Shown in pieces: positions 1-47,143 of a DNA stretch of 48,669 bases (its first letter is position 1; each line of letters starts with the position of its first letter). The DNA is from a virus. The stretch is from the IMG/VR virus record IMGVR_UViG_3300046714_000254, positions 1 to 48,669 of that record. One strand, 5' to 3'. The notes under the pieces were generated by a model. It did not search any database. It had not been told where the DNA came from and saw nothing but the letters and a program-made list of their open reading frames with translations. The position numbers and the translations under genes are program-made.

Positions 1-193
1 ATGATGGGCGCGAGGTGCTGATTCCGACCGTCAGCGACGACGGCCGCGTGATGTCCGACCCCGAAGCCATCGAGCAGTACCGCCGTACCGGCAAACATCT
101 CGGCATGTTCGACACGCCGCAGAACGCAACGGGTTTCGCGCAGCGACTGCATGAGGATCAGGCGCGCCGAATCTCGAAACCGTCGCCGCATAC
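1..193. repeat. Left copy of 193-bp terminal direct repeat (contig overlap)
   Basis: Bases 1-193 match 48477-48669 apart from three transitions, at 128 (A versus G), 131 (G versus A) and 155 (G versus A). All three are third codon positions and leave the protein unchanged. The overlap lies inside the giant late gene and keeps its frame. The simplest reading is a circular or circularly permuted genome whose assembly was cut here, with the two ends drawn from slightly different population variants. A true terminal repeat is less likely, because it would have to sit inside a coding domain. Confidence 0.9.
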
Positions 194-3100
194 GGTGCCG
201 GAAAGCCCGATGTCGAATGCGTTCGATCCGTATGGCGGATATTTCAGCCAAGCGGATCGCGGCCAGCCAGCGCATGCGCCAGACGACTACAGCCAGACCG
301 TTGCTGAATCGCTCGCCGATACGTTCGGCGAAGACTTCCAAGCGCCGTCCGGCGCGGACTGGTGGGGTTCGCTGCGCGGAACGCTCGCGCGACAGTTGCA
401 GGGTTACGAGCTAAGCCAGCTCGAATCGCTTGAAGACGAGATGCTAGGTCGCACATGGCCGGTGGGCCGGCACGGCATGCCGAAGTACGACAGCTCGGCG
501 ACGCCCGAATATCTGCGCGCGGTTCAGGACGACCCGAAGCTCATCGCTATCCGCGAGAAGATCGCGGAAGCGAAAGCGGCCGGGCAGGAGATCACGACCG
601 AAGCGCAAGACATCTCGGCGCGCAACCAGGGCTTTTATCCCCAAGTCATCATGGGCGCGACCAATTCCCTCGCCGCCTCAGCGCCAGCGCTCGCGACAAC
701 GATGGTCACGAAGAACCCGCTGACGAGTTTGCCGATGATGTACGGGCCGACCGCCGCCGGCTCATACGGCGAGATGCGCGAAGCGAACGTGCCACGCGGG
801 CTTGCTGATAAAGCCTCAACCGTCGAAGGCGTCATCGAAGCGATCACGGAATTCCCGGCCATGCGTCCGTTTGCCGCAGAGGCGTCGCCGTTCCTCCGCC
901 GGTTCGGTGAAACGCTCGCGGCCGATATCCCAGGCGAAACCATCGCGACGCTCGGCCAAGATGTCACGCGCGAGATCGCGACGGCAGACCCGAACGCATC
1001 GACGTTTGACTCAGTGACAGAAGGGTTGCGTCAAGGTCTCGGCGAACTACCCGTGACTTACGGCACCGTGCTCGCGACGGCCGGCGCGCACTCGGCCCTG
1101 GGCCACGGCATCGATGCGACGCGCGAAGCGCTGCGCGACAGATCGTCAGAGATCAGCGCCGAAGCGACGCGTGAACGCGCCCTCGCCTCCGCGCAAGATT
1201 TGCTGAACAGGATTCGCGGCCCACAAGGCAGGTTGCCCCTTGATGGGGCCGGAGCGCCGCCCGGAGCGCCGCCGCCGCAGGGGCCGACCGGCGGCGCTCC
1301 GCCGCCTGACCGTGTGTCGCCCACCATCGACATGAGCTTGCTGTCCAGCGTCGTGCCGCAAGACCCGTTCATTCCTGAACTGCCGATGCCTGATCGGACC
1401 ATACAGCCTGAGTTGCCGATTGCTATGATGCCGACGCCCGATACCACGGGTAGTCCGGCTCCTGAGGCCGGTGGCGGAAATCGGACAGCTCCATTACCGC
1501 CATCGACTCAGGGGACGGCATCAGCTTCGCCGGCCCCGTTCTCTTCTGCGTTCCAGCAGCAACCGGCCGCCCCGCCCGCCTCTCCTTCGCCTCAAGAACC
1601 CGCGCCGACGCCTGCGCCCCATGCAGCTCCAGCGGTTTCAACGGCGAAGGAACCCCCGGCGGGCGGGGTAGCTGACCGTGACTTTGATGACGTTGCGGCC
1701 TCGTCACTCTTCCATCTGGAGAACGACGAGAGCGCGCCCGTGCGCGTCTACAAGACCGATGAGCGCGGCGGCGCTCCATCTACTACGGATAAGCCTCCGC
1801 CGTGGCGCGACATCGGCGGAGGCTGGCAGGTACGTGAGTACAACGAGCAGATAGGCGACAAGACCTATCCGCGTCAGGAGATGCGCCAGCCCGGCGGCAA
1901 GCGCTACGTGCGCGGCTACGACCTCGAAGGCAAACCGCTCGATGTGTCCCCGGATTTGACGGAAAGATTCAACCAAGTCTTCGGCGAGCGAGAAGCGCGG
2001 CTTACCGCCGAACGCGAGGCTGCGGCGAAGCTGCCGGGCGCGAAGCAGATGCAGGACCGCCGCGACACAGAGACCAAGAAGCGAACAGATAAGTCGCGGG
2101 ACGCGGATATCGAGCGCCACAAGCAACGTATCGCCGCCGTCGCCGAAGAAGTCGGCCGACTACGCAAGGAGATTCCGGCGGACAAGCTGCCGAAGAAGGA
2201 ACTGCACGACCTCGATATGGCATGGGCGCATCTCGACATCGCAGACGGCAAAGCCGGCGAAGTAAACGCAATGGCCATGATCGCGGACAGGAGCGAGAAG
2301 GCGCTTGAAGCGCTGCGCGCCGCGAAGCCGCCAGCTCGCCCGAAACCGACCGCTGTGCCGACGCCGCCGAAACAGGCAACGATGTTCGATGAAGAAGGCA
2401 AGCCGGCGGAAGGTGCCGCCCAGGTTGTGCCGGAACCGGCGGAAGGAACGAACGACACGCCGCGCGGCGGATGGCCGAAAGAAGGGAGCTGGATCAACGC
2501 ATTCAGCGACGGCACGCTGCCCGATCAGGAACTCAACAATCAGTTAGTCAACGAATCGAATCGACTCGCGGCGATGAGTGGCGTCACTGACCCAATTCGG
2601 AAGAAGTTGGCGAAGGCGCATGCCGGAATCAAAAATCTTTACCCGCGATATTCGGAGCTGGGGAAGGAAGCCGGCGAGAAGGTAAGCAAAGACAGCAGCA
2701 CCGCAATCCGCTACCGCCTTCAAGAGATGGCCACGGAAACCGATCCGAAGGCGCTGGCCGAATACGCCGAAGGTTTACGCGGCATGTTGCAGGGCGCGAT
2801 TGAGCACCGCGAATACAACATCAAGGAAACCAAGCGCGTCGCGCGCGACACACCGAAAGCAAAGCCCGCCGCCGAGACGCCCGCGCCCGCCCAGGTGACG
2901 CCCGAACGCGAACCGACCGGCGGCGATCAAGTCACGCCGCAGCCGTATGGCTCCGGCATGTCGCGGCCGAACGATCTGCGCGCCGCAGTCGCCTCGCCCA
3001 TCGGCGCGGGCGTTGTGGCCACGGAGCTGTCCGAGAACGCGATGGAAGGTGTCGCCGACGCGGTAGCCGCCGGCAAAGAAGTCTTTGTCGATTCTGGCGC

Positions 3101-6100
3101 GTTCTCCGCGTTCAAGGCCGCGATCAAAGCCGGCAAGCCGAACGCGACGAAAGCCGACTTCGATAAAGTCTTCACGAAGTACAACAAACTCATTGAGAAG
3201 GTAAAGGCGCGCACGACATTCGCGCAGCGTGGCCTACTCACCGTCGTCGCGCCAGATGTTGTCGGCGACCAGACCGCGAGTCTCGCCCTACTCCGCAAGC
3301 ACGCGGAAGAGGTGAAGCAGTGGATGGAGGACGGCTTTGAAGTGATCGTGCCGTTCCAGCGCGGGCCGCTGCCCCAGTCGGAAGTCTACAAACAGGTAGC
3401 CGACATCCTGGGCGGAAACGATTTTGTCGTCGGCATCCCGTCGAACGCCGCTGCGATGAGCAACGAGGAGTTTGCCGAACTACTGAGCCAGCCGTACAAG
3501 CCGGATCGCATTCACATCCTTGGTGCCGTGAACTCGCCGCGCGTCGAAGAACGCATGAAGGTCATCCGCGAGCAGTACAAGGAAGAGGTGCCGGGCGTCA
3601 CGACTGACGCGAACCTGATCCGCTCGAAGACCGATGAGCTGCGCGGGCTCAAGGGTGAAGATCGCGTGCGCGCGATCAAGGACATTCTGGAGCGCTCCGC
3701 CACCGACACGCAGAAGGCGATGCCGCCCATCGAGCCGAAGCCGGCTGAGACGCCGAAGAAGTTGCAGCCCAAAGAGGTGTATCCGCAGGCATCGGAAGAC
3801 ATGCCTGTCCGCGAGATCGTTCCGGGTGGGGAAGTCGAAGGCGAGCACGGCGAAATCGTGCAGATGCCGACGACCGAGAAAAAGTTTCAGGAAGTTATCA
3901 ACGAAGTCCCGGCGCTGTTCGAGGCACCGCAAGAGCGCGTAATCGCGATCTACAGCCCGAAACACTACAAAGGCCCGTGGCTGTCGAAGTCAGACGCCGC
4001 CAAGCGCATCGAGAGCTGGCAGGAGCACGCGCGAGACCAGCTCGAAAAAGGCGACAACAGCGGTCGCGTAATCCTGTCGCTCTTCGACCTCACGGGGAAT
4101 TGGGCACAACCGTATGCCGATGCTGGCTATGACGTGCGTGTGTTCGACATCCAGAACGGCGCGGACGTAAACGACTTTTCGGCGGAGTGGTTCGCCGAAA
4201 ACCTGCCGGAAGTCTCGGACGTGTACGGCATCCTCATCGCCTGCCCCTGCACGGACTTCACTGTCTCCGGCAGCCAGCACTGGAAAAAGAAAGACCTCAA
4301 CGGGAAAACCGAAGCGAGCAAGGAACTCGTGTTTCAAGCGCTGCGCACGGTTGAATTTTGGCGGCCGAAGTTTTGGGTACTGGAAAACCCAGTCGGGCGC
4401 ATCGCGGAGCTGACGGGCTTGCCGCCCGCGCGTCTCACGTTCCAGCCGAATGCGTTCGGCGAGCCGTACACGAAGATCACGCAACTGTGGGGCAAGTTCA
4501 ACGCCGACCTTCCAGTCGCGCCCGTTAAGCCGACTGAAGGCTCGAAGATGCACAGCAAGTTCGGCGGCAGCTCGCAGCGCACGAAGAACGCTCGCAGCGA
4601 AACGCCGGAAGGGTTCGCCGCCGCGTTTTTCATGGCTAACAACTACATGGACACGCCGGTCACAGATCGCCTAACGGGAGAATTCCCGGAGGCCGCTGGT
4701 GCCATCGAGAAGGCGCTGGAATCCGGCTTTACTGAGGACCAGATTCGCGAAGTCGTCACTGATCCATACGAAAACTACGAGACCGACGAAGCGCGCAAAG
4801 CAGTCCGCAACCTCGTGAAGACGGGCGAGCCAAAAGGCGAGCCCGGCGTTGCCGGCCAGGACGAAGACGTTGGAACCGCCGCCGCAGAGCGCCCACGCAA
4901 AATCAAGATCAGCAAGACGAAGAAGGGCCGCAAGGCCGCGAGCGTCGAAGGCATGGCGGAGCCGACAGCGGAGGAGCGTGAGCAATCGATTGCCGAAACT
5001 GAGCTGCGCGAAGCCATCGAAGACGAGACGCGCGCCGCGAGCGAACCGCAAGAAGAAGGCGTAGAAGAAGCCACCGACACCGAAGGCAGCAGCCGGTTCA
5101 AGCGGCAGGACGAGCAGATCATCACGCCGTCCACCGTGCGCGAAAACCTCATGAACGAGCTGGGCATCGACCCGGCTGAGTTTCGTCGATTGGGTGGCGA
5201 AGCTCAGTGGAAGCTCGCGGTTCAGGCGATCAAACAGAAGTATGGATACGACGGAATCTTCCGGCATCCCGGCGCGCTGTTACGTAACTCCGTCGATCAT
5301 CTACTTGACGCGTTCGAGTCGTTGCAGAACATGGCGAACGCGATGGGCCAGGGCAACAAGATCGTTTCGCTGAACGGTCGCGTTTCGCTGTACATGCGCG
5401 AGAAGCCCGGCAAGACCAAGGGCTACTTCCGCCACCGTGGCGGGTTGTCAGGAGAGCCGAACAACACCATCGCAATCTACAATCAGGAAGACGTGTACTC
5501 GCACGAGCTGGGGCACGCGATTGACTACGATCTGATGGAGCGCGCTGGCGGCATGGACCCCGGCGGACTGTCGCGCATGATCCGCACGCGTGAGAACACC
5601 TCAGCGCTGCCGAACACGCTGCAAGAGGCGACCGCCGATCTGATGACGGCGCTGTACTACGACGGCGCGGCAATCGCGCAGCTCATCAAGAAGGCTGAAC
5701 ACCAGCTCGAGAAAGCCGGCACGCCGAAGCGGCGGGCGGAACTCACGAAACGGCTCAAGAATCTGCGCTCCGGCGCGTGGACGGGGCGCGGTAGCAAGAC
5801 GCAGTTTTACCTTCGCGCGAAAGACGGGCCGATGGCCGAATACTTGACGAAACCCACGGAGCTGTTCGCTCGCGCGTTCGAGGCGTACATCTCGTGGAAG
5901 ATCCAATATCAGAACGAATTGGGGCTCGTGAAGTTTTTAGGCGCCACCGACGCCGTATACCGCGACGAGGCTGACGCGTGGATCGCGCGCACGTATCCGC
6001 AGGCGCAAGACCGCCAGCAGATTTTCTCCGCCTTCGACAACTTGTTAGGCCAGCTCGCCCGCGAAAATATATACGACACGAAGGGCAACCCAGGCTGGGC

Positions 6101-8825
6101 ACAGTCGAAGCTGAATATCGGGCTCATGGACCCCGTGGCACAGGCGAAGGCCGAAGGCACCGCGCTCACGCCCGACATCGTGCGCGCACACAATCTCACC
6201 ACGGCTGCCGCAGAGACCTTCGTTGAAGACCAGATCAAGCTGAACGACACGCTTGGCAAGAACTGGGATCAGCTCATCGCCGACTTGGCAGCGGGCAAGG
6301 CTGGCGCGCCCGACAAGTTCCACGCGGCGATGAAGGCGATCACGAGCACGCCCGATGGAATCATGGCGTTTCTGGAGCGCCGCTATCCGAACCTCCCCTC
6401 GCTGCGCGCCATCCGCGATCAGCTCTCGGACGCGGCGATTCACGGCCGAAATAAACCCGTTGGCGTTTACCGCGAGATTCAGCGACAGGAAGCGTCGATC
6501 AGGAACCGTCTCGAAGACCGACTCAAGGCGGTCGGCGTCCACGCGAACATGCCGGCGAAGTGGTCGGAAAGAATGTGGGACATCCTGCACGGCTACGAGA
6601 AGCCGGCGAACGATGCGGAGAAGCGGCAGGCGGATCAGATTCGCTACGAGCTGGATTACCTGTGGAAGCTGCGCGATCAGACCGGCGAGAAAATCGGCTT
6701 CATCGACTACGAGTATCTGCCGCGTTCTTTCCTGCGCAACATCGCCGACGATCCGCGCTTCCACCGCGACCTCTTGAAGCTGCGCGCGGAAGAAAAGCAG
6801 GCGCTGATTGAAAAGCTCGAAGAGCAGCTTCAGAACGCGAAGAGCGACGAAGCGCAAAAAGCGCTCAGAAAACGGATCAAGGAAGCCGAAGCGCTGAACG
6901 TGCGCGCGATGACAGCCGAACAGGTCGGACGCATGAAGGGTATGAAGTGGGGCGAGCCTGTCTACCTTGGCGCGCTCAGTCCTGATTCCGGCAAAGAGCG
7001 CGTGTTCGGCCCGCTCGCCGACAAGATTCTCAAGGACTACTACATCAAGGACCCGTTCACCCTCCTCGCCGGCTACGGCGGCGCGGCGGCGCGCGGCATG
7101 GTGATGCGTCGCCGATTCGGCGAGACGCCCAACACCGTGTTCCAGGGCTGGCTCGATCAGGCCGCGCTCGGGCTGCCGTCCGCGTATGCGGACATCCTCC
7201 TCAACGCGATGCAAACCTCACTCGGCGTGCGTCGCGACGGTAACAGCACGCTTGCGCGCGGCGTGAGTGCGCTCGCCAACGTCGAAGTCGCCTCGATGCT
7301 CGGCCGCTCCGTGCTGCCGAACATCTCGGAGCCGCTGAACATCCTCAAGTCTAGCTTCAACTCGCTCAACACGTTCGGCTCGCTGGTCAAGGCGATGATG
7401 CCCGCGATCTTCTTGAGCAACACCACGCAGGAGCGATACGAAGCGGCTGATCGATTCGGGCGGCTGTCCGGGATTCTGGTCGATGCCGCCAGCTCCACGA
7501 CCGCGATGGCTCAGGCGATGGGCGAAGACGTGCAGGGTAACGGAATCCTCGCGCGCTTCTCGATGCGGGCTTACTACTTCAACATGCTGTCAAGCCTGAC
7601 GGCATGGCAGGAAAAGATTGTGAACCGTGTCGGCTTCGAGATGTTTTACGAAGCGGCGCGCATCGTGCGCAAGGGTGGCGAAGACGCTGGCATGTATCGG
7701 CAGTGGCTGCGCGAACACGGCATCCGCGACGCCGACGCCTTCGCCACGTTCCTGAAAGACAATCGCCAGCTCGACGGCATCAAGTTCGAGAACACCATCA
7801 AGCCGGGCAGTATGGAACTGGCGCTCTCAAACGCGCTCGATCACTTCGGCAAGACACAGATTCAGAAACCCACGCCATCGACCAAGCATATCCAGGCTCA
7901 CAACGGTTTATGGGGAATCGCGTACCGCTTGACGAGCTGGATGACGACCAACTTCATCAACTGGGCCGCGTACATGAAGGACAAGATGATGTCCGGCATC
8001 TCCGGCCGTTACGGCGCGGACGTTGTGCCGCTCGGCAATCGTCTCAGCATCAAGGGCGAATACGACGGCAAGAAGTTGACGGCGGGCGAACGCTTCCACG
8101 GGCGCGTAGGCGGCGAGCAGTTGACGATGGGCCAGCGTGTCGGCTCGATGATGCTCCCGGTCGCAGCGTCAGCGCTGGCGATGTATGCGGCACAAGCCAC
8201 CTTCCTCGTCGCGCGCATGTATCTCACGCATCACGACGAGTGGGAAGATCGCGGCGAAGACTTCTGGGAACGCTTCTCGAATCCGAAGACCCAGTTACAA
8301 ATCCTTCAATACTGGGGCGGTCTCGGCTGGCTCATGAGCACGTCAATCGACGCCACGGAAGCCACGCGGTTTAACCGCGGAGCCACCGGCACCTTGCTAG
8401 GCCCCGTTTACGGCGGCATCGCGCAGGACGCGGAGCGCATGATTAAACTTGGCATCGATCAGTACGCCGTCTCGCAGGGTGACAAACTACCCTCCGTCGC
8501 GGTCAGGAACAACGCGGCCCAGGCTGTGTACCATCAAGCCTCAGTGCTCGCGACGGTCGCGCTGCTGAGCGTGCTGCCATTGCAGAACCGATACTCACGC
8601 GCCGCCGGATTCCTCTGGTCGTTCTTCGGCACGAGCCCGCAGGCGCAACACGAGTTCGCCGACCTTGTGGCCGGCGAGAAAGACGCGGCGCTGAAACAGG
8701 CGGCGGATTCGAGCGACGTGAAAGCGCGCACCCCGGCCCGCAAAGAAATCGAGACGCGGCAACGCGAGAAAGAAAGATTCGACCGCGACAAAGAACGTAG
8801 AGATCGACAGGAGAAAAGGCAATGA
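3..8825 (+). CDS. Giant polyvalent virion/ejection protein, main part (continues from 48167)
   Basis: The frame is open from the left edge. Joined across the terminal overlap, the gene starts at ATG 48167 and encodes about 3044 residues (numbering below is for the joined protein). Visible parts: two 25-residue FDLxGARKEG repeats (3-50); an RNADGS...LIPTV segment (about 78-150) seen in many phage internal proteins; long Pro-rich and coiled linkers; a TGT/DpdA-like TIM-barrel segment (about 1089-1297) with [25 protein letters not shown] and RIHILGAV; a C5-cytosine-methyltransferase-like segment (about 1416-1650) with PC at 1519-1520 and ENP at 1565-1567; a zincin-like segment with HELGH at 1938-1942 and FARAFEAY near 2059; and a long C-terminal region with a hydrophobic stretch near 2820-2845 and a charged tail, resembling the LPD38-type region of polyvalent proteins. 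It follows the ejection-protein genes, so it is probably packaged and injected to protect the phage genome or act on the host early. The domain calls are from motifs; the biochemical roles are inferred. Confidence 0.85.
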
Positions 8826-9529
8826 GAGACATCGAACTATCACCCATCCCGTCCGCGATCCCCGATCCGGCTGTCGATGACGCCGCGTATGCCGAACCCC
8901 CACCGGGCGGCATCGCGTCAGACACCGCCGCAGTCGATCCGGCAGCTTCGGACACGAAGGCGTATTCCAAGGTCAGCCTGGGCGGCGAGTTCGGCCCGGC
9001 TCGCGCGCCGCTTCTGAGCCAGCCGGCGGACGGTGGCGTAGCCAACTTGCTCGCCGCCACAACCATCATCGTCACGCCGCCCGTCGTGCCGACCCCGCCG
9101 CACACATGGCCGGGGCGCGCGGCTAACAACACGAGCTTTCTGAATCTGTACCCGTGGCACAAGACGCCGCCGCAGGGGCTCGACCAGAACAACCCGAACC
9201 CGCCCCCGGCCGCAGACCCGCCGCCGCCACCGCTGCCGACAGGCGTCACGGTTGGCGGCAATACGCTCGTTGGCAACAACGGGAACGCCACCTTCAGCGG
9301 ACCAGCCTCGCGCGATGCCATTGTCACGCTCATGTACGCGATTGATGGCGGGCCGAGTCAGCAGCTTTTCGTTGGCATCCAGGCCGGCGACACCGGATCG
9401 CAGATTGCCGCCAAGGTGCGCAACGCCGTTGACGCGGTAGTTGGGCTCGACGCTGATGGTACGGGCGGATCAGTCCACGTCATCGGCATCGGCGGCAACC
9501 TCACTGCCTTCAACCTTTCCGTTTCGTAG
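8822..9529 (+). CDS. Proline-rich virion-associated protein, paralogue 1
   Basis: 235 residues. The ATG overlaps the stop of the giant gene (ATGA), so translation is coupled and it is probably a late structural or ejection-related product. The N-terminal two-thirds is disordered and rich in Pro, Ala and Gly (PPPPPL near residue 137), with a short SLGGEF motif. The last 90 or so residues look like a compact beta-rich domain ([12 protein letters not shown] onward). The next gene shares SLGGEF, the disordered Pro/Ala-rich layout and a similar C-terminal domain pattern, so the pair looks like an old duplication. No signal peptide or catalytic motif is visible. A decoration or accessory virion protein is possible, but no family is recognised. 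Confidence 0.75.
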
Positions 9530-9537
9530 GAGTCAAT

Positions 9538-10116
9538 ATGATCGACCAAACTACCCCACCCTTCCGCACGGGCGACACGGCATGGACGCGCGCCTCGCCC
9601 GGTGGCTACGCCTCCGCCGCTGCGGTCCCCGTCGATCCCGCTTACGGCGGCACCGACAACGCCTACCTTGTCCCATCACTCGGCGGCGAGTTCCAGCCTG
9701 GGTCCGGCATGGCCGCGCCCACCAGCTCCCCGATCACCAAAGGCGCGGACGCCGATGGTGGCGCGGCTGACATCGCTGGCGCTCCGCGCATCGACGTTCC
9801 GCCTGTGGTCGCGCCGCCCGTGATCCCGGCGCTGTCGGTCACGGTGGACGGCTTCAATCTGATCTTCTTGGGCAAGGCTGCCGCTGCGAAGGTCGTGGAT
9901 GTGCAGTACGAAGTGAACGACGACGGTATCGCGCGTCATGTCGCCGGCATCGCGATCCCGATTGGCACGAGCGCGGGCGCTGCCGCCGCCATCGTTGCCG
10001 GTCGCATCAACGGCGCGGCTCACCTGACCGCAGCCACCACGAGCAACGAAGTACGGGTTGCGGCCAAGACGCCCAACGTCATCGGCGCTGACCCGCTCCT
10101 TTGCACCATCACGTAA
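9538..10116 (+). CDS. Proline/alanine-rich virion-associated protein, paralogue 2
   Basis: 192 residues, preceded by a clear AGGAG Shine-Dalgarno. It has a disordered N-terminal half with SLGGEF, as in the gene upstream, then a Pro/Val linker and a C-terminal segment of alternating hydrophobic residues (VVDVQYEVNDDG, then AGRINGAAHLTAATT). The alternation resembles the C-terminus of its neighbour and suggests the same fold. No enzyme motif or membrane segment is visible. It ends just before the holin-like gene, so it belongs to the end of the late transcript. Function is unknown; a structural or accessory virion role is inferred from position only. Confidence 0.75.
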   Translation: MIDQTTPPFRTGDTAWTRASPGGYASAAAVPVDPAYGGTDNAYLVPSLGGEFQPGSGMAAPTSSPITKGADADGGAADIAGAPRIDVPPVVAPPVIPALSVTVDGFNLIFLGKAAAAKVVDVQYEVNDDGIARHVAGIAIPIGTSAGAAAAIVAGRINGAAHLTAATTSNEVRVAAKTPNVIGADPLLCTIT

Positions 10117-13796: not shown

Positions 13797-14119
13797 GACC
13801 AGCTCCTATTTGTTTCTCTACGGGTTTGGATTACCTTCCGCGCCATGTCCTTTTGCACCGCACCTCCCCGTGACTCAGCTAACTGTCTATCCATTGCCGT
13901 CGCCCCTGGTTTGCTGCCCGCAACTGCTCGCCGCCGTTGAGCGGCGACTAGCGCGACGCGGTATCGCTCTGCACAAGATTGGTGACACCACTTGTGTCCT
14001 ATGGGCGGACCCCACCAGTACGGGAAGACATCCGCCCCCGCGATTCCCGGCCGCTGGCATACCTCGCACTCCGCCTGCCTGAGCGGCGCGTCTTGCGTCT
14101 GCCTACGCCTGCGGCCCAT
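13793..14119 (-). CDS. Small Cys-rich protein
   Basis: 108 residues from ATG 14119, which lies a little inside the 3' end of recT (17-base overlap). Two metal-binding-like pairs are visible (CEVCQRPG, then CHQSC) around an aromatic FPYWWG stretch, followed by a basic helical tail. The stop overlaps the start of the ParB-like gene. Small zinc proteins of this sort are frequent in phage recombination operons, but I do not recognise this one. Function unknown. Confidence 0.6.
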   Translation of the reverse strand: MGRRRRQTQDAPLRQAECEVCQRPGIAGADVFPYWWGPPIGHKWCHQSCAERYRVALVAAQRRRAVAGSKPGATAMDRQLAESRGGAVQKDMARKVIQTRRETNRSWS

Positions 14120-15038
14120 CGAAGAGGTCTCCCGGCACTACTTCCCCGGTGTCCGGGTCCACTGAGAACGTGCCGTCGTCGCCTCCTGACGCCTGTACGG
14201 GCTCTGTCGGGCGGGCGGCTGGCTCCGTGCCCCCGATCCCATCGAGCGCCGTCCTGCGGCGTCGTGCTTTCGGTTCCGGGGCCGGCGCGGGCGCGGCGCG
14301 GGGTTCGTCCTCGTCCTCGATGACGTGCCCTTCGATCACCCGGCCGCCCTTGGACATCTCCTCGTGGAGTTCCGACAGGCGGAAGGCGTTGTTCGCGGTC
14401 GTGGACAGGGGCAGCAACTTCGCGAGGCGACGCAACGCCGTCTTCTTGGCCATCTCTTCGTAGTTGTCGCTCCACGCTGGGCCGTTGGCGTTCTGCGAGC
14501 GGCCACGGATCGCATCGACCTGGGCCTTGGTCATCACGACGCGGGCGGCGATCCCGCCGTCGCGGTACTTGGCGAGTGCGTAGACCATCACCATCGGTCC
14601 CCGGTCCTGCCAGTTCACCATCGACTCGAAGTGAGAGTTATCGCCGAGTACGTATAAGGTCTTATCGTTTAAGCAGACGATTTCTGCTTCTACGAAGCCG
14701 ATGTCACCCTGTCGGGCCAACTTGATGAGGCCGCGATAGCCAGGGACCAGCGTGACCTTGCCCTTGAACGGCACGAAGTACGCCTCGCCTAACTGCGCAT
14801 CGGGCAGCAACCCCAACTGCGCGGCCGTGACGACGGAGGCGAACAGCGAGCCGCGATCCATGTTGAGCAGGTTCGGGTTCTGCTGGAGCGCGGTCATGGC
14901 CACGCGCAAAAACTTCTCGACCGTCACATGCGGCGGCAGTGCGCTCTTCAACTGATCCTGCATCGACGGCAGGTACAGTTGCGTGCGGATCAGATCAATC
15001 GGCTTTTCGGCGGGCCTTTGGGCGACGACGGTGTTCAT
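14103..15038 (-). CDS. recT: RecT-family single-strand annealing protein
   Basis: 311 residues. The sequence has the RecT hallmarks: LRVAMTALQQNPNLLN, then SLFASVVTAAQLGLLPDAQLGEAYFVPFKGK, LVPGYRGLIKLARQGDIG, and the AKKTALRRLAKLLPLS region. RecT coats single strands left by a partner exonuclease and anneals them to complementary DNA, which drives phage recombination and recombination-dependent replication. The C-terminal 70 residues are a disordered Pro/Ala-rich tail. The exonuclease partner is most likely the YqaJ-like protein at 16330. The SSB-like protein downstream may load it, as SSB tails do in other systems. The 5' end overlaps the VRR-NUC gene by 44 bases. Confidence 0.93.
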   Translation of the reverse strand: MNTVVAQRPAEKPIDLIRTQLYLPSMQDQLKSALPPHVTVEKFLRVAMTALQQNPNLLNMDRGSLFASVVTAAQLGLLPDAQLGEAYFVPFKGKVTLVPGYRGLIKLARQGDIGFVEAEIVCLNDKTLYVLGDNSHFESMVNWQDRGPMVMVYALAKYRDGGIAARVVMTKAQVDAIRGRSQNANGPAWSDNYEEMAKKTALRRLAKLLPLSTTANNAFRLSELHEEMSKGGRVIEGHVIEDEDEPRAAPAPAPEPKARRRRTALDGIGGTEPAARPTEPVQASGGDDGTFSVDPDTGEVVPGDLFDGPQA

Positions 15039-15582
15039 GTTCCAACTCCATTGGTTTTGGCGTCAGCTCCGCCAGCTCGGCGCGCGGCGGCAGACGTAGA
15101 TAGACATCGATGAGACGCAGGACGGTGTTCAGGGAATCGGACCAGCACGCCGCGTACCCTTGGGCGCGGGCCAGCTCGAGAAAATTGCACTGGCTGTCAG
15201 TGGGCCGGCGCGGCGGGACTTTCAGCTCGATCACGAGCCCGTGGTACGCGCCCCGTGGCACCAACATCACGAGATCGGCGACGCCAGCGCGAGCGCCTAA
15301 CGCGTGGAACATCCCGGCCGTATGGTTTTCGCGGCGAAGCAGTTCGAGCGGTACGTGGAAGCACAGCGAGCCGATCTGCGGATAGGCGTTGTCGATGTAC
15401 TGAACGACGGCTTTTTGAATCTGCTGCTCGCGGTAGATCAGCGGCGGCTCAGGGCCAAGTCCCAGGTTCAGATACAGCGCGTGCTGTCGCGCCAGAAGAT
15501 CCACCGCACCGCTTCCATCGACCCACTTGAGCGCGGCCTTGGGAAGAATGCGAAGCCCAGGTGAGCGGCGACGGCGCATCAT
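14995..15582 (-). CDS. VRR-NUC domain nuclease
   Basis: 195 residues; the start is one of two adjacent ATGs (15582 or 15579) overlapping the preceding stop. The middle shows a VRR-NUC/PD-(D/E)XK core: YREQQIQKAVVQYI, GVADLVMLVPR, and the ELK triad in LVIELKVPPRRPT, then SQCNFLELARAQGYAACW, which closely resembles the usual family ending. Such stand-alone nucleases can cleave branched or flap DNA. In this operon it may act as a Holliday-junction or flap nuclease beside RecT. The 44-base overlap with recT suggests coupled expression. Confidence 0.85.
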   Translation of the reverse strand: MMRRRRSPGLRILPKAALKWVDGSGAVDLLARQHALYLNLGLGPEPPLIYREQQIQKAVVQYIDNAYPQIGSLCFHVPLELLRRENHTAGMFHALGARAGVADLVMLVPRGAYHGLVIELKVPPRRPTDSQCNFLELARAQGYAACWSDSLNTVLRLIDVYLRLPPRAELAELTPKPMELEHEHRRRPKARRKAD

Positions 15583-16115
15583 GAGTAGAACCGGCCGTCA
15601 CGCTGCGCGAGCAGGTTCACGAGCTGGCCCATCGGCCGCAGCTCCGACACCGGGCGGAAGTAGTTTGGATGGCCCGGCGTGAGTTCGCTGATCGGCATCG
15701 CGGCCATGATCCCGGCCGTCTCCCAGCCCAAGAACGTCAGCACCTTTCGGTTGTACAGCGCGAGCACGAGCAGATCAGCGCAGCGCTCGATGTCGCGCTC
15801 TTTGATTAAAAGGTTTTGCGGGCTCTCGCTGGTCTTGATATCGATGGTGCGCGGTACGCCCCTGAACCAGACGGTGAAGTCGATCCCGCCGTCGCCCGCG
15901 TATTGCTCGGTCGCAGCCTCGTAGGTGTAGGGCAACCCAAACGCCCGTGCGAAGTGCATCTCACCCCACACGCCGACGAACGCCCGATGCTGTGCGACCT
16001 TTTGGTCGTCTGTCAGACCGGACGCGTCGAACAACGTGTTTGATGCCGCCCCTTCGTGCGACTTGTTGCGCGCCCAGGCGATGCGATTCGCCAGCTCTTC
16101 CTCAGCGCCGTTCAC
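15579..16115 (-). CDS. PD-(D/E)XK-like nuclease-fold protein
   Basis: 178 residues from a GTG at 16115, chosen because it overlaps the preceding stop (GTGA); longer readings run over the YqaJ-like gene. The core GDGGIDFTVWF, then RTIDIKTS, gives the D...DxK pattern of the restriction-endonuclease fold, and GVWGEMHFARAFG supplies the usual N-terminal acidic helix. The C-terminal half is beta-rich (LLVLALYNRKVLTFLGWE). It lies between a zinc protein and the VRR-NUC gene. Role unknown; it may be a second repair or defence nuclease. The catalytic call rests on motif spacing. Confidence 0.65.
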   Translation of the reverse strand: MNGAEEELANRIAWARNKSHEGAASNTLFDASGLTDDQKVAQHRAFVGVWGEMHFARAFGLPYTYEAATEQYAGDGGIDFTVWFRGVPRTIDIKTSESPQNLLIKERDIERCADLLVLALYNRKVLTFLGWETAGIMAAMPISELTPGHPNYFRPVSELRPMGQLVNLLAQRDGRFYS

Positions 16116-16333
16116 AGGTATTGCTCGAAGCCCGCGTAGCCGACCCAATCGACTTGACCGGGGGCGCGCTGGTGCTCGATGCGGTCGCGCACCACCTGTT
16201 CCGCGATCCACGCTTCGCCGTGCGCCGTGCCGTGGAGCGCGCCACCGCAACGACACTTGCAACGCTCGTTCTTGGCGTGCTCGCAGCTCCACGCGAGCGA
16301 GCGCATCGCTTCGATGGTGATGGGGCGCTTCAT
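16112..16333 (-). CDS. Small Cys/His zinc-binding protein
   Basis: 73 residues. The ATG at 16333 overlaps the stop of the YqaJ-like gene (ATGA), and its stop overlaps the next start (GTGA), so the chain is unbroken. A compact Cys/His cluster is visible in CEHAKNERCKCRCGGALHG, like a short zinc ribbon. The remainder is mainly helical and charged. Similar tiny zinc proteins sit beside recT and exonuclease genes in many phages, with no known role. Function unknown. Confidence 0.65.
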   Translation of the reverse strand: MKRPITIEAMRSLAWSCEHAKNERCKCRCGGALHGTAHGEAWIAEQVVRDRIEHQRAPGQVDWVGYAGFEQYL

Positions 16334-17247
16334 CGCGAAGTCGTGATGCGAAGTTGGATGCGCTCGGGCTGCGCGTTGCGCTCGACCGTGTGCGCGGGTT
16401 TCGCCGGGACCACCTTGCACGACACGCGCCCGCCGTTGGCGACGATGGCGGCGTACTGGTTGGCGCGGCAGTAGGCGAGCACGCGCCCGTCAATCATCGA
16501 CTCGTCGGCCTCGATGCGTTTACGCGCGTCGCGCAGCTCGCGAAGTTGCTGGAGCCAGGTTTCAACGTCGGGATCGCCGCGTAGGTCTACGTTGCCGTCC
16601 CCGGTGTGCCATACGCGCTTGGCCGCATCCAGGTCCTGCGGCATCTCGGCCGGCGGCTCCTCGTTGCGCTCGATGGAATCCCAGAAGGCGCGAACACGCC
16701 CGCGTATCTCGGCGATGGCTTGATCGTGGCGCGCGATCTCGCAGCGAACGATTCGATCCCCGCTGATGAGCGCGATCAACAAACCGGCCGCCGACTTGCA
16801 GCAAGCGAGCTGTACCTGCACCTGCAAACTGAATCGCAGCGGCGGCTCTACGAAGCCGTCGTCGTGAATGATCCAGTTATCTTTGAACGATCCCCACGAG
16901 GCGTTCTTAACTTCGGCCGGGAACTCCCCGCCCTCCCTAACCAGAAAGTAATCCGGGGTTGCACCCAGGCCGGCGCATTCATCGTCGGTGAAGTACGCGT
17001 TAGCGCGGGTTAGGGTGTAGCCGTACAGCTCGCCGGCCGCCCGCGCTATGCCCTCCTCCAGACACTTGCCTAAGACAACGCGCTCGTTGTCGTTGTAGTC
17101 CGCATGCGCCAGATCGCCGCGCTTCTCGTGCCAGAGCTGGAAGTGGGACTGATAGCCGCACCCAAAGAGCGCTGCAACTTCGCTCGCCCCGATGCAGCTA
17201 GCGCGCAAAGAATGCCAATGATCCTCATTTTCAATCGCGTGCCGCAC
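16330..17247 (-). CDS. YqaJ-like viral recombinase / alkaline exonuclease
   Basis: 305 residues from a GTG at 17247, only 2 bases after the preceding stop. The N-terminus has the family signature (HWHSLRASCIGASEVAALFG), followed by KRGDL and a conserved middle. The nuclease site is D in GATPDYFLV and ExK in FPAEVKNASWG. YqaJ proteins digest one strand of double-stranded DNA ends and hand the remaining strand to RecT. The pairing in one operon supports that role. The C-terminal third is helical, with a linker and basic end. Confidence 0.9.
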   Translation of the reverse strand: MRHAIENEDHWHSLRASCIGASEVAALFGCGYQSHFQLWHEKRGDLAHADYNDNERVVLGKCLEEGIARAAGELYGYTLTRANAYFTDDECAGLGATPDYFLVREGGEFPAEVKNASWGSFKDNWIIHDDGFVEPPLRFSLQVQVQLACCKSAAGLLIALISGDRIVRCEIARHDQAIAEIRGRVRAFWDSIERNEEPPAEMPQDLDAAKRVWHTGDGNVDLRGDPDVETWLQQLRELRDARKRIEADESMIDGRVLAYCRANQYAAIVANGGRVSCKVVPAKPAHTVERNAQPERIQLRITTSR

Positions 17248-18829: not shown

Positions 18830-20470
18830 CTACGCGACCACCCGCAGGGGCGTTGTCAGCTTCTCGACATCGATGAGCTTCACGTCTACCGCGTACCGAT
18901 CCCGCATGTTGGACGACTTGTCCCCGGTGCGAAGCGCCGGTTGGATGCGGCCCAGGTCCCCGCGCGTGTCGCCGGTTTCCATGTCGCGGAACAGCTTGTG
19001 CAGGCGGATATGCCACGGCCCCAACTGCACGAGCGGATCGTGCATGTCCCCGCTCACCGCGCGCATGGCGTCCGAGTGATCGTAGTGAACGGCAGTGACA
19101 TCGGCCGCGCCATCGCTCGACGGCGTATGCGTGAGCGACATCGACACGAGATGCTTGGGACACTGGAGATAGCTCAGGTACGTTGAGTGCGTCTTGCGCA
19201 ACGTGTAGCGGTTCCAGCGCGCTTTCTTTGGCGTACCCATCTGCTTCTCAATCGCCCGCTGCACCTTGCTCCGGCGGGCGCGCCACATGTTGCACGTCTT
19301 CTTCGAGAACACGCGGTTATCGTTCTCGTCCTTGCGACGCTCCCACGCCTCGCGCAAGCGCTCCAAGATGCGCAACGAATCGCCCGTCAGCAGCACGCGA
19401 CGCGGGGTGTCTTCATCGGCGCTCTTGCCGCGCCCCTTCATGCGCCCGACGCGTCGCGGGACAATCCATGTCAGGAACCGCTGCTCATGGCCATCGAAGT
19501 CTTTGAACGTCTCGAACTGTCCCCACGCGCATTCGTCCCATTCCATGCCCAGGGCGGTCTCGGCGCGCACGCCCGTTGCGCGCACGAAGAGGGGCAGCAG
19601 TCCGCCCAGGTGTGGCAGCTCGTGGAACAGCGGCGTTGCCTTCTGGATTTCCCCCGGATACAGGAACCGCGTGTTCGGCGGATAGCGCGCGGGCTTCAAG
19701 TCTTCGATCCCTTCCCCGTCGGTCAGGTACTTGACCTTCTTGAACCACGTCAGCATCGGCATGATCGTGGTGATGATTGAACGCACGCGCTTCAATTCCT
19801 GTTCGAGTGACGTGCCGTCGCGGCGGCTTTCGGCGTACTGGTTACGCGCTTCGAGCAACGTGTCGTAGTTGAGTACGTTGCAGGGGCGCGCGAGGTACTT
19901 CTCACACATGGACATGAAGCGGCCGATATGGCCGTCGCGCGTTTCCTTCTCGTAGCTGCCATCCTTTTGCAGCCCCGTATGTCCCCAGCTCGTCGGCAGT
20001 GGCGCGCCCTTCTTGGCGGTACGTGGGTCACGCTTGTCACGGCGCGCGACGATGTACTCCTCAATCGCATCGAGCAACGTGGGGATCGCACGCGCCTCGA
20101 CCTTGACGCCTTGCTGCTCGTACTTGGCGCGACGAATGATGTACTCGACGCGCGCCCGCTTGGCGCTGAACGCATCCTTCCCGATGATTTTCGGATCGTC
20201 CCACTTGCCGAATACTTCGCTGAAGCGTTCGGACTTTCCGCCCGCCACGGCTGGCAGGCGCATGCGCAGAACGAAGGAGGCGCGCTTGGCGTCCTTGTGG
20301 AAGAACACCATGTAGCCATCGAGCGATGCGTCAGTGACGGCTTCGCGCAAGACGGCGTGAGGGTTGGTGGCGAGGATCGCGCGGCGACGGGCGAGTTCAC
20401 CGCGTAGCCATTCGTCGGTGATTTCGACCTCGGGCGGTTCCCCGGTCTCGATTGCAAGTTTCGGTTTCAT
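18830..20470 (-). CDS. int: Tyrosine integrase
   Basis: 546 residues from ATG 20470, with the GGAGCTGTC leader. The C-terminal catalytic domain shows the Arg-I box (FVRATGVRAETALGMEWDE) and the RYTLRKTHSTYL region, followed by a late VHYDH that may hold the nucleophilic tyrosine. An N-terminal arm- or core-binding region has a long insert (EYIVARRDKRDPRTAKK). It catalyses site-specific insertion of the phage genome into the host chromosome. It is longer than lambda-type integrases. The neighbouring tRNA-like segments and repeats fit an attP. This gene is the main evidence that the phage is temperate. Confidence 0.9.
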   Translation of the reverse strand: MKPKLAIETGEPPEVEITDEWLRGELARRRAILATNPHAVLREAVTDASLDGYMVFFHKDAKRASFVLRMRLPAVAGGKSERFSEVFGKWDDPKIIGKDAFSAKRARVEYIIRRAKYEQQGVKVEARAIPTLLDAIEEYIVARRDKRDPRTAKKGAPLPTSWGHTGLQKDGSYEKETRDGHIGRFMSMCEKYLARPCNVLNYDTLLEARNQYAESRRDGTSLEQELKRVRSIITTIMPMLTWFKKVKYLTDGEGIEDLKPARYPPNTRFLYPGEIQKATPLFHELPHLGGLLPLFVRATGVRAETALGMEWDECAWGQFETFKDFDGHEQRFLTWIVPRRVGRMKGRGKSADEDTPRRVLLTGDSLRILERLREAWERRKDENDNRVFSKKTCNMWRARRSKVQRAIEKQMGTPKKARWNRYTLRKTHSTYLSYLQCPKHLVSMSLTHTPSSDGAADVTAVHYDHSDAMRAVSGDMHDPLVQLGPWHIRLHKLFRDMETGDTRGDLGRIQPALRTGDKSSNMRDRYAVDVKLIDVEKLTTPLRVVA

Positions 20471-41024: not shown

Positions 41025-42083
41025 ATGGCTTTTACTGCGTCGGAGCTGGCATCCATTGCGAATGCCGCGCTCGACTTTCACTTCAAGGGGCAGCCACTGC
41101 CCCAGAGCATTCAGGACAAACCGCTCCTGGCTGCGCTCGAAGGGGCACGCAAGACCTTCCCCGGTGGCAAAGGCGATATCACGATCCCGGTCAAGGGCAA
41201 GTACAGCTTTGAAGGAGCTGCCGTCCCCCCGACTGGATCACTTCGCGGCTTCACGCATGACGACCCGGTGGCATACGGCAACATCGCCGGCATCGAGCGC
41301 GTCAAGTATCCGTGGCGCGAGGTTCACACCGGCTGGAACTGCACCTTCACGGAATTGAAGATTGACGGCATCAGCGTCACCGATTCCGCGTTCGGCGAGA
41401 ACACCAGCAAGCACAGCAAGCGTGAGGTGACGGCGATCACCAACATCATGCAGGACAAGGTTGAGACCTTCGGTGAAATCACCATGAAGTCGCTCAACAC
41501 GATGTTCTGGGGTGACGGCACCGCCGATCCGCTCGGCTTCATCGGCGCTCGCTACTTCATCACCGCGACACCGGCCGTGGGCGTGACTGGCGGTCTCGAC
41601 CGCGCCACGAATACGTGGTGGAGAAATCGTTTCGCGACGTGGCCCGTCGCGACAACGGAACTGCCGAACGTGATCCATTCGGAGATGCGCCAGCTTCGCC
41701 GCTACGGCGGCAAGCCGACGAAGGCGTTTGCAGGCTCGGGATTCCTCGATGCGCTCGTGAAGCAGCTCCGCGACAAGGGCTACTACACGGATGCGGGCTG
41801 GAGTCGTCCGGCGTCCACCGATATCGCTGTCGCGGACATCCGCTACAACGATCTGATCTTCCAGTACGACCCGTCACTGGATGACCTGGGCGGCGCGTTC
41901 GTCAATAGCTGCTACGTGATCGACCCCAAGCACCTCTACATCTACGCGATGGAACAGGAATGGGGCAAAGACCATGCGCCCGCCCGGCCGCATGACGTGT
42001 ACGCGCTGTTCAAGGCGCGCACGTACACCGCGCAGCTCTGTGCCGACCAGCTCAACTGTCACGCACTCTTCCAAGTGACGTGA
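41025..42083 (+). CDS. Major capsid protein
   Basis: 352 residues, ATG 41025 with CGGAGG upstream. Starts MAFTASELASIANAALDFH and has the alternating pattern of an HK97-fold coat (FTELKIDGISVTDSAFGEN, then TMFWGDGTADPLGF). No obvious processed N-terminal arm. It follows the scaffold gene and is followed by a strong terminator, as expected for the most abundant late product. It builds the icosahedral head. The call is from order, length and pattern. Confidence 0.88.
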   Translation: MAFTASELASIANAALDFHFKGQPLPQSIQDKPLLAALEGARKTFPGGKGDITIPVKGKYSFEGAAVPPTGSLRGFTHDDPVAYGNIAGIERVKYPWREVHTGWNCTFTELKIDGISVTDSAFGENTSKHSKREVTAITNIMQDKVETFGEITMKSLNTMFWGDGTADPLGFIGARYFITATPAVGVTGGLDRATNTWWRNRFATWPVATTELPNVIHSEMRQLRRYGGKPTKAFAGSGFLDALVKQLRDKGYYTDAGWSRPASTDIAVADIRYNDLIFQYDPSLDDLGGAFVNSCYVIDPKHLYIYAMEQEWGKDHAPARPHDVYALFKARTYTAQLCADQLNCHALFQVT

Positions 42084-42098
42084 AGCGGGGACCAATGT

Positions 42099-42125
42099 GG
42101 GGCGGCGATCTTGCCGCCCCTTTTT
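42099..42125 (+). terminator. Terminator after the capsid gene
   Basis: GGGGCGGC (42099-42106) pairs with GCCGCCCC (42113-42120) and runs into TTTTT, 15 bases after the capsid stop. It probably makes the capsid message more abundant than the downstream tail genes. Confidence 0.85.
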
Positions 42126-42141
42126 GAAAGGAGTGCGAGCG

Positions 42142-42483
42142 ATGCAGCAACTGAATGCACTGGTAGCCTTGACCGGCGACCGCAACAACATGGTTTGGAA
42201 GACGGGACTCTCCCCGGCCGAAGTCCTGCTCTTGCAGTCGCTGCACGGCGCGGACGCTGTTCTGTCCATCGAGCCCGTTGGCGAAGTGAAGCGCGAACCG
42301 TCCGAGGAGATTGCGCGACTCAAGGAGCTGTATCCGCTGCACGGCGAGCGTATCCAGAATATCTGGCGCGACTTCCCAGGCCCAGCGTTCCCGTCGCGGA
42401 TCGATGCGCTCGGGATCAACCCCGCTCTTCTGAAGCCCGCCGAGGCATCGGCAAAGTTTCAGGTGAGCGCGAAGCCGTCGTGA
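42142..42483 (+). CDS. Small head/tail-region protein
   Basis: 113 residues from ATG 42142, chosen for AAAGGAG 8 bases upstream. Helical with some charged repeats (SEEIARLKELYPLHGERIQ). Lies between the coat and the adaptor, where podoviruses often carry a small head-completion or joining protein. No motif confirms that. Function unknown. Confidence 0.65.
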   Translation: MQQLNALVALTGDRNNMVWKTGLSPAEVLLLQSLHGADAVLSIEPVGEVKREPSEEIARLKELYPLHGERIQNIWRDFPGPAFPSRIDALGINPALLKPAEASAKFQVSAKPS

Positions 42484-42487
42484 TCCG

Positions 42488-43240
42488 ATGCGCGGCCAAA
42501 CGCTCGGCGAGTTGTTGAGCGACCTGAAAGCAGAATGCGGTTATAGCCAGAACGCAGCTCACGGCATCAACAATCGGGATTCTCTCGTGCAAGTTCTCAA
42601 GCGCACGCAGCGCCGGCTGTGGAGCGATTGGGACTGGATGCACATGCGCGTCTCGCGCGACATGCAGTTGAACGCGGGCCAGCGTTACTACAACTGCCCC
42701 ACCGATCTGCCCTACGAACGCATCGACTGCGCTGAGGTGAAGTTCGGCGGTCAGTGGATTCCGCTGTGTTTCGGGATCAACGAGCGCAACTACTCGGTCT
42801 TCGACCCGCGCAACGATGAACGATCCTGGCCCATCATGAATTGGGACATCGCGGAGGACCCGGCCGACACCGCAGGCACGCCTGACAATCGCGGCATGAT
42901 CGAAGTGTGGCCGCTGCCATCTGACAGCGGCATCGTCGGCGGCACGCTCGAAGGAAACATTCGCCTAACAGGCATCCGCTTCCTTCTTCCATTCAATGCG
43001 GACGCGGATCGATGCGACCTTGACGGGGATCTGATTGTGCTCTCCGCCGCCGCCGAGATTCTGATGCGCGACCGCAAGGACGACGCGCAAGCGAAGCAGC
43101 AAGCGGCGCAGACGCTGTACATGCGCCTTCGCGGCAATCAGGAAAAGAACCGCAGCTTCAATCTCAACGGCGGACAGCAAGATGACGACAAGGTGAACGT
43201 CACCTACGCGCACCCGGTTCCGTTCTCCGTGGGGCCATAG
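42488..43240 (+). CDS. Head-tail adaptor (T7 gp11-like)
   Basis: 250 residues, ATG 42488 close after the preceding stop. The N-terminal half (LVQVLKRTQRRLWSDWDWM, then CPTDLPYERIDCAEVKFGG) and the strand pattern after it resemble T7 gp11 tail adaptors. The C-terminal part is a helical stretch (AKQQAAQTLYMRLRGN). It would sit under the portal and dock the nozzle encoded next. The call is from order and pattern. Confidence 0.75.
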   Translation: MRGQTLGELLSDLKAECGYSQNAAHGINNRDSLVQVLKRTQRRLWSDWDWMHMRVSRDMQLNAGQRYYNCPTDLPYERIDCAEVKFGGQWIPLCFGINERNYSVFDPRNDERSWPIMNWDIAEDPADTAGTPDNRGMIEVWPLPSDSGIVGGTLEGNIRLTGIRFLLPFNADADRCDLDGDLIVLSAAAEILMRDRKDDAQAKQQAAQTLYMRLRGNQEKNRSFNLNGGQQDDDKVNVTYAHPVPFSVGP

Positions 43241-45229: not shown

Positions 45230-45659
45230 GCGCGCCTTGGCGTGCCGCTACCGGATCGCGGATCACCGCGAGGCATGGCCGCGCATTCTCCCCGGCCTCG
45301 AGAAACTGCACCGCCAGTACGTCGATCAGGACTGGGACATCGCTGGTATCCGCTCGATGCTGGACGACGACCTGGCTCTCCTACTCACCGACGACAACGA
45401 TGACACCGCGTTCGCGATTGTTCGGTTCGATGACTACGTTTACAACCCCGACGAGAAAGAGCTGTACGTCTATCTGTTGTGGCACAAGGGCGGCGACGTG
45501 ATCGAACGCTACCAGCCGCACCTCGATTTTTTCGCGCTGCTCGGCGGCGCAAAGTATCTGCGGTTTTACTCGCGACGCCCCGCGTTTCTGCGCGTCGCCA
45601 AGCGCGCGGGCTACCAGCCTCGCGGAATCGAATACGTGAAGGAGTTATCTCATGGGTAA
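45192..45659 (+). CDS. Ejection-cluster protein (T7 gp13/GNAT-like)
   Basis: 155 residues; start inside the 3' end of the nozzle gene. The pattern (DDDLALLLTDDNDDTAFAIV, YVYLLWHKGGDVIERY, FLRVAKRAGYQPRGIEYVK) resembles the acyltransferase-like fold of T7 gp13 and relatives, which help assemble the inner core. Acetyl-CoA-binding residues are not clearly preserved. Position just after gp12-like supports it. Confidence 0.7.
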   Translation: MPHSTTPTQQRIERALACRYRIADHREAWPRILPGLEKLHRQYVDQDWDIAGIRSMLDDDLALLLTDDNDDTAFAIVRFDDYVYNPDEKELYVYLLWHKGGDVIERYQPHLDFFALLGGAKYLRFYSRRPAFLRVAKRAGYQPRGIEYVKELSHG

Positions 45660-46257
45660 GGGAAGCGCCGGCCGGGAAGCACGCAGGGCCAGACAAGAAG
45701 AGGAGGCGCGCGTAAAGCGTGTCAGCGACGGCACGCGGGCCATTCGCGGCATGTTCGATCAGAAGTTCAACCAGTCTTACTGGGACGCCGAACAGGCGAA
45801 GCAGAAGGCGTCATACATGGACGACTTCACTACGCAGTGGGAGACCGCGCGCAAGGGACTCGAAGCGGCGCTGATGCGTCAGGGCATCTACGACTCGACC
45901 GAGGGCGTCACACGAATGGCCGCCGCTCGAAAGCAGTACAAAGACAAAGACGAGATGCTCAATCAGCAGGCGCTGTCCACCATACAGGCGGCAAAAGGCA
46001 AAACGATTGCGGCGCAAGACAACGTAATCGGTCAGTTGCGCAGCTCCAGCGACTTGAACGCCGCGAACGCCGCCGCCGCACAGCAGCTCGCCTTTCAGTC
46101 GCAGCCGATTCCCTACTCGCCGCTTGGCTCCGTCTTCACCGACTTCACGGCCGGGCTCGCCGAACAGGCGCAGCAGGAACGTCAGGGTACGAATCGCTAC
46201 AACCTGGGCATCTCGACGTGGGCCAATCCGAATCGCTACACGCGGAACGTGGGGTGA
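45652..46257 (+). CDS. Internal virion (ejection) protein
   Basis: 201 residues, 8-base overlap with the preceding gene. Highly charged helical N-terminus (GREARRARQEEEARVKRV) and Ala/Gln-rich middle, like T7 gp14-type ejection proteins that form the channel across the outer membrane. It has a late YSPLGSVFTDFTAGL segment. It is followed by two more proteins and then the giant polyvalent protein, in the usual ejectosome order. Role inferred. Confidence 0.75.
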   Translation: MGKGSAGREARRARQEEEARVKRVSDGTRAIRGMFDQKFNQSYWDAEQAKQKASYMDDFTTQWETARKGLEAALMRQGIYDSTEGVTRMAAARKQYKDKDEMLNQQALSTIQAAKGKTIAAQDNVIGQLRSSSDLNAANAAAAQQLAFQSQPIPYSPLGSVFTDFTAGLAEQAQQERQGTNRYNLGISTWANPNRYTRNVG

Positions 46258-46260
46258 CAC

Positions 46261-47136: not shown

Positions 47137-47143
47137 GTGACAC

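Follow-up and report, generated by a model that had tools for sequence, protein, structure and literature searches.

A giant phage protein of the polyvalent type with DpdA-like, C5-cytosine-methyltransferase-like and metallopeptidase-like domains in one open frame

Modification of DNA with 7-deazaguanines is known as a phage trait that uses separate enzymes during replication. DpdA exchanges guanine for preQ0 in DNA and thereby protects phage DNA; His196 is conserved in DpdA and absent from DpdA2 (PMC6884629). Polyvalent proteins, among them DarB of phage P1 and the N4-like virion RNA polymerase proteins, are very large multidomain proteins that are encoded near virion genes and contain LPD domains, an HExxH zincin and a base-modifying enzyme (Iyer et al. 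2017, PMC5512222), and the protein described here is built likewise. DarB, a polyvalent adenine methylase of the virion, gives DNA protection in cis (PMC5512222). CmoX, from a Synechococcus phage, is a C5-type enzyme shown to be a carboxymethyltransferase (PMC12783734).

The analysis covered a single virus record (48,669 bp), the whole of which is called the window here. The two contig ends have 193 bp in common with three mismatches (positions 128, 131 and 155), window positions 1–193 duplicating 48477–48669. This overlap has to be taken out, because plain end-to-end joining breaks the frame of the giant gene. The joined gene (48167–48669, then 194–8825) is uninterrupted by stop codons and encodes 3,044 aa, as expected from the original prediction of a single gene of about 3044 residues across the contig junction; all residue numbers refer to this joined protein. 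Despite inexact end repeats, the genome is either circular or terminally redundant. The three mismatches lie outside all three domains of the giant protein and suggest strain variation or an assembly error. A near-identity DNA search of the window against phages gave no match. The DpdA-like, C5-methyltransferase-like and HExxH/LPD1 domains are all found in the one open frame, which is laid out as follows:

41025–48163, plus strand: upstream virion cluster with a major head protein, a tail tubular-like protein, a packaged-DNA-stabilisation-like protein, an acetyltransferase (by position) and three more genes
48167–48669, plus strand: 5′ part of the giant gene, residues 1–168, start ATG at 48167
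Within the part for residues 1–168, plus strand: two copies of the N-terminal repeat FDLxGARKEGxSxxEIAxYL, then a domain that runs on at 194
3–8825, plus strand: main part of the giant gene (open frame; after joining, 194–8825 follow 48669)
222–1988, plus strand: N-terminal block, residues 178–766, 51% identical to the closest full-length relative (L173) and including the Pro-rich linker 490–677
2922–3710, plus strand: DpdA/TGT-like transglycosylase domain, residues 1078–1340, a predicted eight-stranded barrel
3903–4793, plus strand: C5-cytosine-methyltransferase-like domain, residues 1405–1701
5097–6182, plus strand: zincin-like metallopeptidase and LPD1, residues 1803–2164 (AlphaFold2 pLDDT 84.8)
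6183–8822, plus strand: C-terminal region, residues 2165–3044, 22–24% identical to the giants of the Microcystis phage and L173

These limits, with about 1803–2125 taken for zincin plus LPD1, are close to those claimed in the original prediction, and the motifs DSGAF (D1134), ACPCTDF, LENPVG and HELGH were found where it had placed them. Pro-rich linkers, which it had described as joining the domains, are present, but they lie at residues 490–677 and 875–930, ahead of all three domains, and do not join every domain pair. A chance stack of motifs was ruled out as an explanation, since each motif sits in a conserved homologous domain. For the C-terminal region (2165–3044) there was no Pfam match, and a single-sequence search of viral contigs found no relatives. 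The giant gene is followed by two short codirectional genes (8822–9529 and 9538–10116) whose products have an N-terminal motif in common (39% over 64 aa, E 0.004), and these are perhaps paralogous small virion proteins.

Neither Pfam nor NCBIfam has a model for the DpdA-like domain. The only lead from any library was phrog_887 (queuine tRNA-ribosyltransferase), which matched the domain at 8e-8 and also matched 27 of the 76 family members. An AlphaFold2 model of residues 1078–1340 (mean pLDDT 93.2, pTM 0.90) shows eight strands in a TIM-barrel fold. Searched against the complete genomes of phages 9g and nt-1, the family profile matched solely dpdA of 9g (7.9e-5) and dpdA2 of nt-1 (0.008). In hhalign comparisons the family matched 9g-type DpdA at E 1.8e-9 (96%) and DpdA2 at 7.9e-6 (84%), both of these profiles being thin (7 and 11 sequences), while the match to bacterial TGT was weak (1.8%), yet had the DSG motif in register, and class II aldolases as a control gave 0.19 (0.3%). 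Three positions of the family correspond to conserved DpdA residues (fractions refer to the family sequences that cover the position; D72, H196 and D215 are in the numbering of 9g DpdA):

3090–3092, plus strand: D1134, in DSGAF; aligned with D72 of 9g DpdA and with the Asp of TDSGGF in TGT; 76/76
3513–3515, plus strand: H1275, in HILG; aligned with His196 of 9g DpdA; 76/76
3606–3608, plus strand: D1306, in TTDAN; aligned with D215 of 9g DpdA (CDSSS) and with YDSS of DpdA2, the position expected for the nucleophile; 66/66

A search of viral structures with the model gave as its best match of known function a 464-aa protein of nt-1, which has the same length as DpdA2, followed by a phage queuine tRNA-ribosyltransferase. 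Among the top 50 solved structures there was no TGT, the best being other TIM barrels with a TM of about 0.5, so that the class is assigned from viral DpdA structures and from profiles. Neither the block nor its profile had a credible sequence match in the PDB. Since no TGT was among the top 50 solved structures, the bacterial TGT profile reached 1.8% and the PDB searches gave no sequence match, we file the domain as DpdA-like and not as a TGT. A class II aldolase, as suggested by the list of solved structures, was rejected because the aldolase profile comparison fails and it is the DpdA residues that are conserved. The fold, the matches to DpdA profiles and the presence of an Asp at both catalytic positions support the view that residues 1078–1340 are a DpdA-like transglycosylase barrel, and the TGT/DpdA-like domain of the original prediction is thus upheld by the modelled fold as well as by the profiles.

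A tblastn search with the DpdA-like block against phage records gave nothing credible even at E 10, and therefore the plasmid collection was needed, which yielded the first relatives at 34–42% identity. These plasmid relatives include standalone genes of about 270 aa on Pseudomonas and other plasmids, and the block is also contained in 2,206-aa LPD1 proteins of Cupriavidus plasmids that have conjugation genes nearby. A single-sequence search of viral contigs with the block found no relatives; the family alignment alone succeeded, viral contigs giving at least 97 relatives and bacterial genomes 25. In about half of the 80 retained viral loci the domain is part of an ORF of more than 1,000 aa (the longest has 6,491 aa). 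LPD38 is present in the same frame in 8 of 32 examined relatives, and the contig carries a clear terminase in 12. The DpdA-like domain is apparently a widespread and undescribed module of such injected-type proteins in phages and plasmids.

The DpdA-like domain of the window has its nearest relatives in proteins of 0.6–0.9 kaa (L014, L015, L017 and L022) in which an inorganic-pyrophosphatase-like block was recognised by eye, and one of these, L017, ends in a RadC-like HNHPSGD motif (also by eye). At another locus (L037) an InPase match lies in the same ORF as the DpdA-like domain. At 5 of 30 loci (L009, L011, L102, L103 and L104) a PP-loop ATPase of about 747 aa (annotated as PAPS reductase family, SGGKDSS) is located 1.3–4 kb from a standalone DpdA-like gene. 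It could be the partner of the standalone gene in a DNA-modification set of plasmids. A phosphoribosyltransferase was dismissed as a general neighbour of the standalone genes, since none came up in a motif scan, though one is annotated at L010.

The domain at residues 1405–1701 matched phrog_757 at 3e-41. PF00145 scored 24.4 bits for the isolated domain against a cut-off of 22, and 20.9 bits, under the cut-off, for the whole protein; it matched 10 of 11 relatives of the domain. A protein of Pseudomonas phage 8P that is annotated as "structural protein" contains a domain with 46.6% identity to the C5 domain of the window. The family profile had no match among solved structures, and the domain is compact with about 300 aa. 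Two motifs are invariant in the 15 C5 domains from giant proteins that were compared:

4248–4250, plus strand: C1520, predicted catalytic Cys, in the PCT motif of ACPCTDF; 15/15
4383–4391, plus strand: ENP, E1565–P1567 (E1565 at 4383–4385), in LENPVG; counterpart of the motif VI ENV; 15/15

These profile matches support the predicted assignment of residues 1405–1701 as a compact C5-cytosine-methyltransferase domain, which was also the original claim. Since this short domain shows no assignable late motifs or target-recognition part, the group transferred is probably methyl but may be a different C5 substituent.

The third domain combines an HExxH motif with LPD1:

5502–5516, plus strand: HELGH, H1938–H1942, predicted zinc-binding and catalytic motif
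5838–6065, plus strand: LPD1 (PF18796), residues 2050–2125 (E 3.7e-11, 43.3 bits against a cut-off of 27)

Relatives of the HELGH region read HEWxHAxD. In an alignment of 47 zincin sequences H135, E136, H139 and E254 (alignment numbers) are invariant, E254 being part of helix 252–271 of the model. E2057, which lies within LPD1, is invariant and is a candidate for the third zinc ligand. The top matches of the zincin-LPD1 model among solved structures were Pro-Pro endopeptidases, at a non-significant E of 0.24, and the zincin profile matched metallopeptidases of the lethal-factor family weakly (E 0.04–0.08). Lethal-factor-type metallopeptidases were also used in the 2017 survey to place the polyvalent metallopeptidase superfamily (PMC5512222). 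As judged from sequence, HELGH, the later Glu and LPD1 together support a putative metallopeptidase signature of polyvalent proteins. Of the predicted zincin-like domain, the HExxH...E pattern and LPD1 thus hold, while structural support for the zincin fold is weak. As a guess, a Pro-Pro specificity would suit cleavage of the Pro-rich linkers of the giant protein itself.

The giant gene stands downstream of genes for a terminase (phrog_38, 2e-103) and a head protein (phrog_9953, 1e-25). The virion cluster is collinear with that of the podophage Mae-Yong1326-1 of Microcystis, with head protein, small protein, tail tubular protein, stabilisation protein, an acetyltransferase-sized gene, three more genes and the giant gene in this order; the tail tubular proteins are 32% identical (8e-34) and the packaged-DNA stabilisation proteins 36% (9e-60). 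The cluster of Mae-Yong1326-1 likewise ends in a giant LPD1 protein. This protein of 2,441 aa, annotated as a peptidoglycan transglycosylase, has the zincin, LPD1 and the C-terminus in common with the window protein (22–24%) but lacks both base-modifying domains. We therefore regard the backbone of the giant protein as ejection-type and the base-modifying blocks as additions. LPD1, LPD38 in relatives, the synteny, the unrelated activities and the place among virion genes support the view that the giant protein is a polyvalent protein at the end of an ejection-protein cluster, as had been proposed from the window alone. We infer that it is delivered into the cell with the DNA, a step to which the ejection-type cluster position points without being proof of presence in the virion. 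Elsewhere in the window, 18830–20470 gave a weak tyrosine-integrase match (E 0.005, below the cut-off), and 14103–17247 on the minus strand contains a recombination cluster with RecT, VRR-nuclease and YqaJ; from these the phage may be temperate.

No protein other than that of the window was found with all three domains, while the pair of DpdA-like and C5 domains recurs elsewhere. A C5 domain is present in 12 of 44 non-redundant giants with a DpdA-like domain, in both orders, and in ten pairs the two are 18–171 residues apart. Only 2 of 49 LPD1-zincin giants have a C5 domain (Fisher p 0.003), the two sets representing different phage groups that were found with different probes. In the tree of the DpdA-like domain the pairing with C5 needs at least 7 changes (gains or losses), and the domains that stand nearest to the window's there belong to proteins lacking C5. 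L173 (L173:2181–11720, 3,180 aa), the closest full-length relative, matches the window protein in the C5 block (62%) and in the C-terminal part as well as in the N-terminal block; its C5 domain is present while the DpdA-like block is absent, so that the two proteins differ by the gain or loss of a block at one joint. These changes in the tree, together with L173, indicate that the DpdA-like and C5 modules have been joined and parted repeatedly.

How could such a protein work? The reading that we favour, with somewhat better than even confidence, is an ejected polyvalent protein with two adjacent nucleobase-modifying modules that would mark phage DNA at G and C against restriction. The DpdA-like barrel would exchange guanine in DNA for a 7-deazaguanine (preQ0) of host make, and the C5 module would methylate cytosine in the same DNA. 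With G and C marked at entry (or in the virion), the phage DNA would not be cut by host restriction enzymes. The zincin would cut the polypeptide after entry and release the modules. A profile check of the contig gave no match to QueC or to PTPS/QueD, and preQ0 would therefore have to be supplied by the host. If this holds, incoming DNA would be protected immediately, with no need for phage genes to be expressed or for the phage to encode synthesis of the base. The wider proposal that phages and conjugative elements alike inject a preassembled two-base DNA marker (DpdA-like plus C5, protease-released, using host-made 7-deazaguanine) is a tentative one, which we hold to be rather less probable than its opposite.

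Several other functions were weighed against this one. The DpdA-like domain could act on host or phage tRNA in the manner of a TGT and alter early translation, the C5 domain acting independently on DNA or RNA. The annotation of the matched PHROG as queuine tRNA-ribosyltransferase fits such an activity, as do the common chemistry of TGT and DpdA and the notion that the domains of polyvalent proteins have unrelated targets (PMC5512222); however, bacterial TGT is a far more distant profile match (1.8%) than DpdA (96%) or DpdA2 (84%), the family keeps the His of DpdA position 196 without exception, and the recurring partner is a C5 methylase of the DNA type. We consider a tRNA substrate unlikely. 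Still somewhat less probable is that the modules modify replicated phage DNA inside the producing cell, ahead of packaging or while it proceeds, the giant being their carrier, a protein of the virion or of assembly. Known phage DpdA enzymes do act on replicating phage DNA during infection (PMC6884629), but the gene ends the late virion cluster, the syntenic phage has a giant protein there too, and polyvalent proteins are interpreted as effectors of the entry phase (PMC5512222).

Two further explanations appear very improbable, each to about the same degree. One is that the C5 domain transfers a non-methyl group, for example carboxymethyl, and that the pair builds a hypermodified base. It draws on CmoX, a phage C5-type enzyme as here that was shown to be a carboxymethyltransferase (PMC12783734), and on the compact and divergent C5 domain, which is barely at the PF00145 cut-off; yet CmoX candidates are defined by SPPC together with an Arg at position 350, and SPPC is absent from the window protein, which has ACPC. 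The other holds that the blocks are relics, or domains that only bind, in an ejection protein with a structural role. That the DpdA-like block is dispensable, as its absence from the closest full relative indicates, would agree with this, but catalytic positions kept in 76/76, 66/66 and 15/15 sequences are not expected of relics. Marking of phage DNA by an ejected protein remains the reading we prefer. If it is true, 7-deazaguanine modification extends to the moment of DNA entry as a direct counter to restriction. It also offers a likely function for a widespread domain that has no Pfam or NCBIfam model, including the "hypothetical" genes of about 270 aa on many Pseudomonas plasmids.

The trio of domains is not known to have been described, as the original prediction put it, and TGT and queuine go unmentioned in the 2017 polyvalent-protein survey (PMC5512222). 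A full-text literature search for the combination gave nothing relevant; "undescribed" is provisional, because this search leaves out subscription papers and preprints. The polyvalent methylases of the 2017 survey are mostly N6-adenine methylases fused to SWI2/SNF2 helicases (PMC5512222), whereas the giant of the window has a DpdA-like and a C5 domain instead. With DpdA of 9g and DpdA2 of nt-1 (PMC6884629) the DpdA-like domain shares profile similarity over its length, the barrel fold and the D72, H196 and D215 positions. The phage DpdA and DpdA2 are separate enzymes, usually accompanied by genes for preQ0/G+ synthesis, while here a shorter domain is placed inside a giant protein. The 5,145-aa "structural protein" of Pseudomonas phage 8P (8P_023) has a C5 domain in a giant of the virion cluster, together with HExxH motifs, but no DpdA-like domain. 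In this protein (L003:9004–24441) ParB-like, adenine-methylase-like and helicase-like stretches were recognised by eye besides two HExxH motifs, and it apparently contains two DNA methylases. The standalone plasmid genes encode the same DpdA-like domain without C5. The 2,206-aa Cupriavidus plasmid protein resembles the giant of the window in its DpdA-like domain, LPD1 and a zincin (HEWWH), but it is without C5 and is found in the context of a conjugative element.
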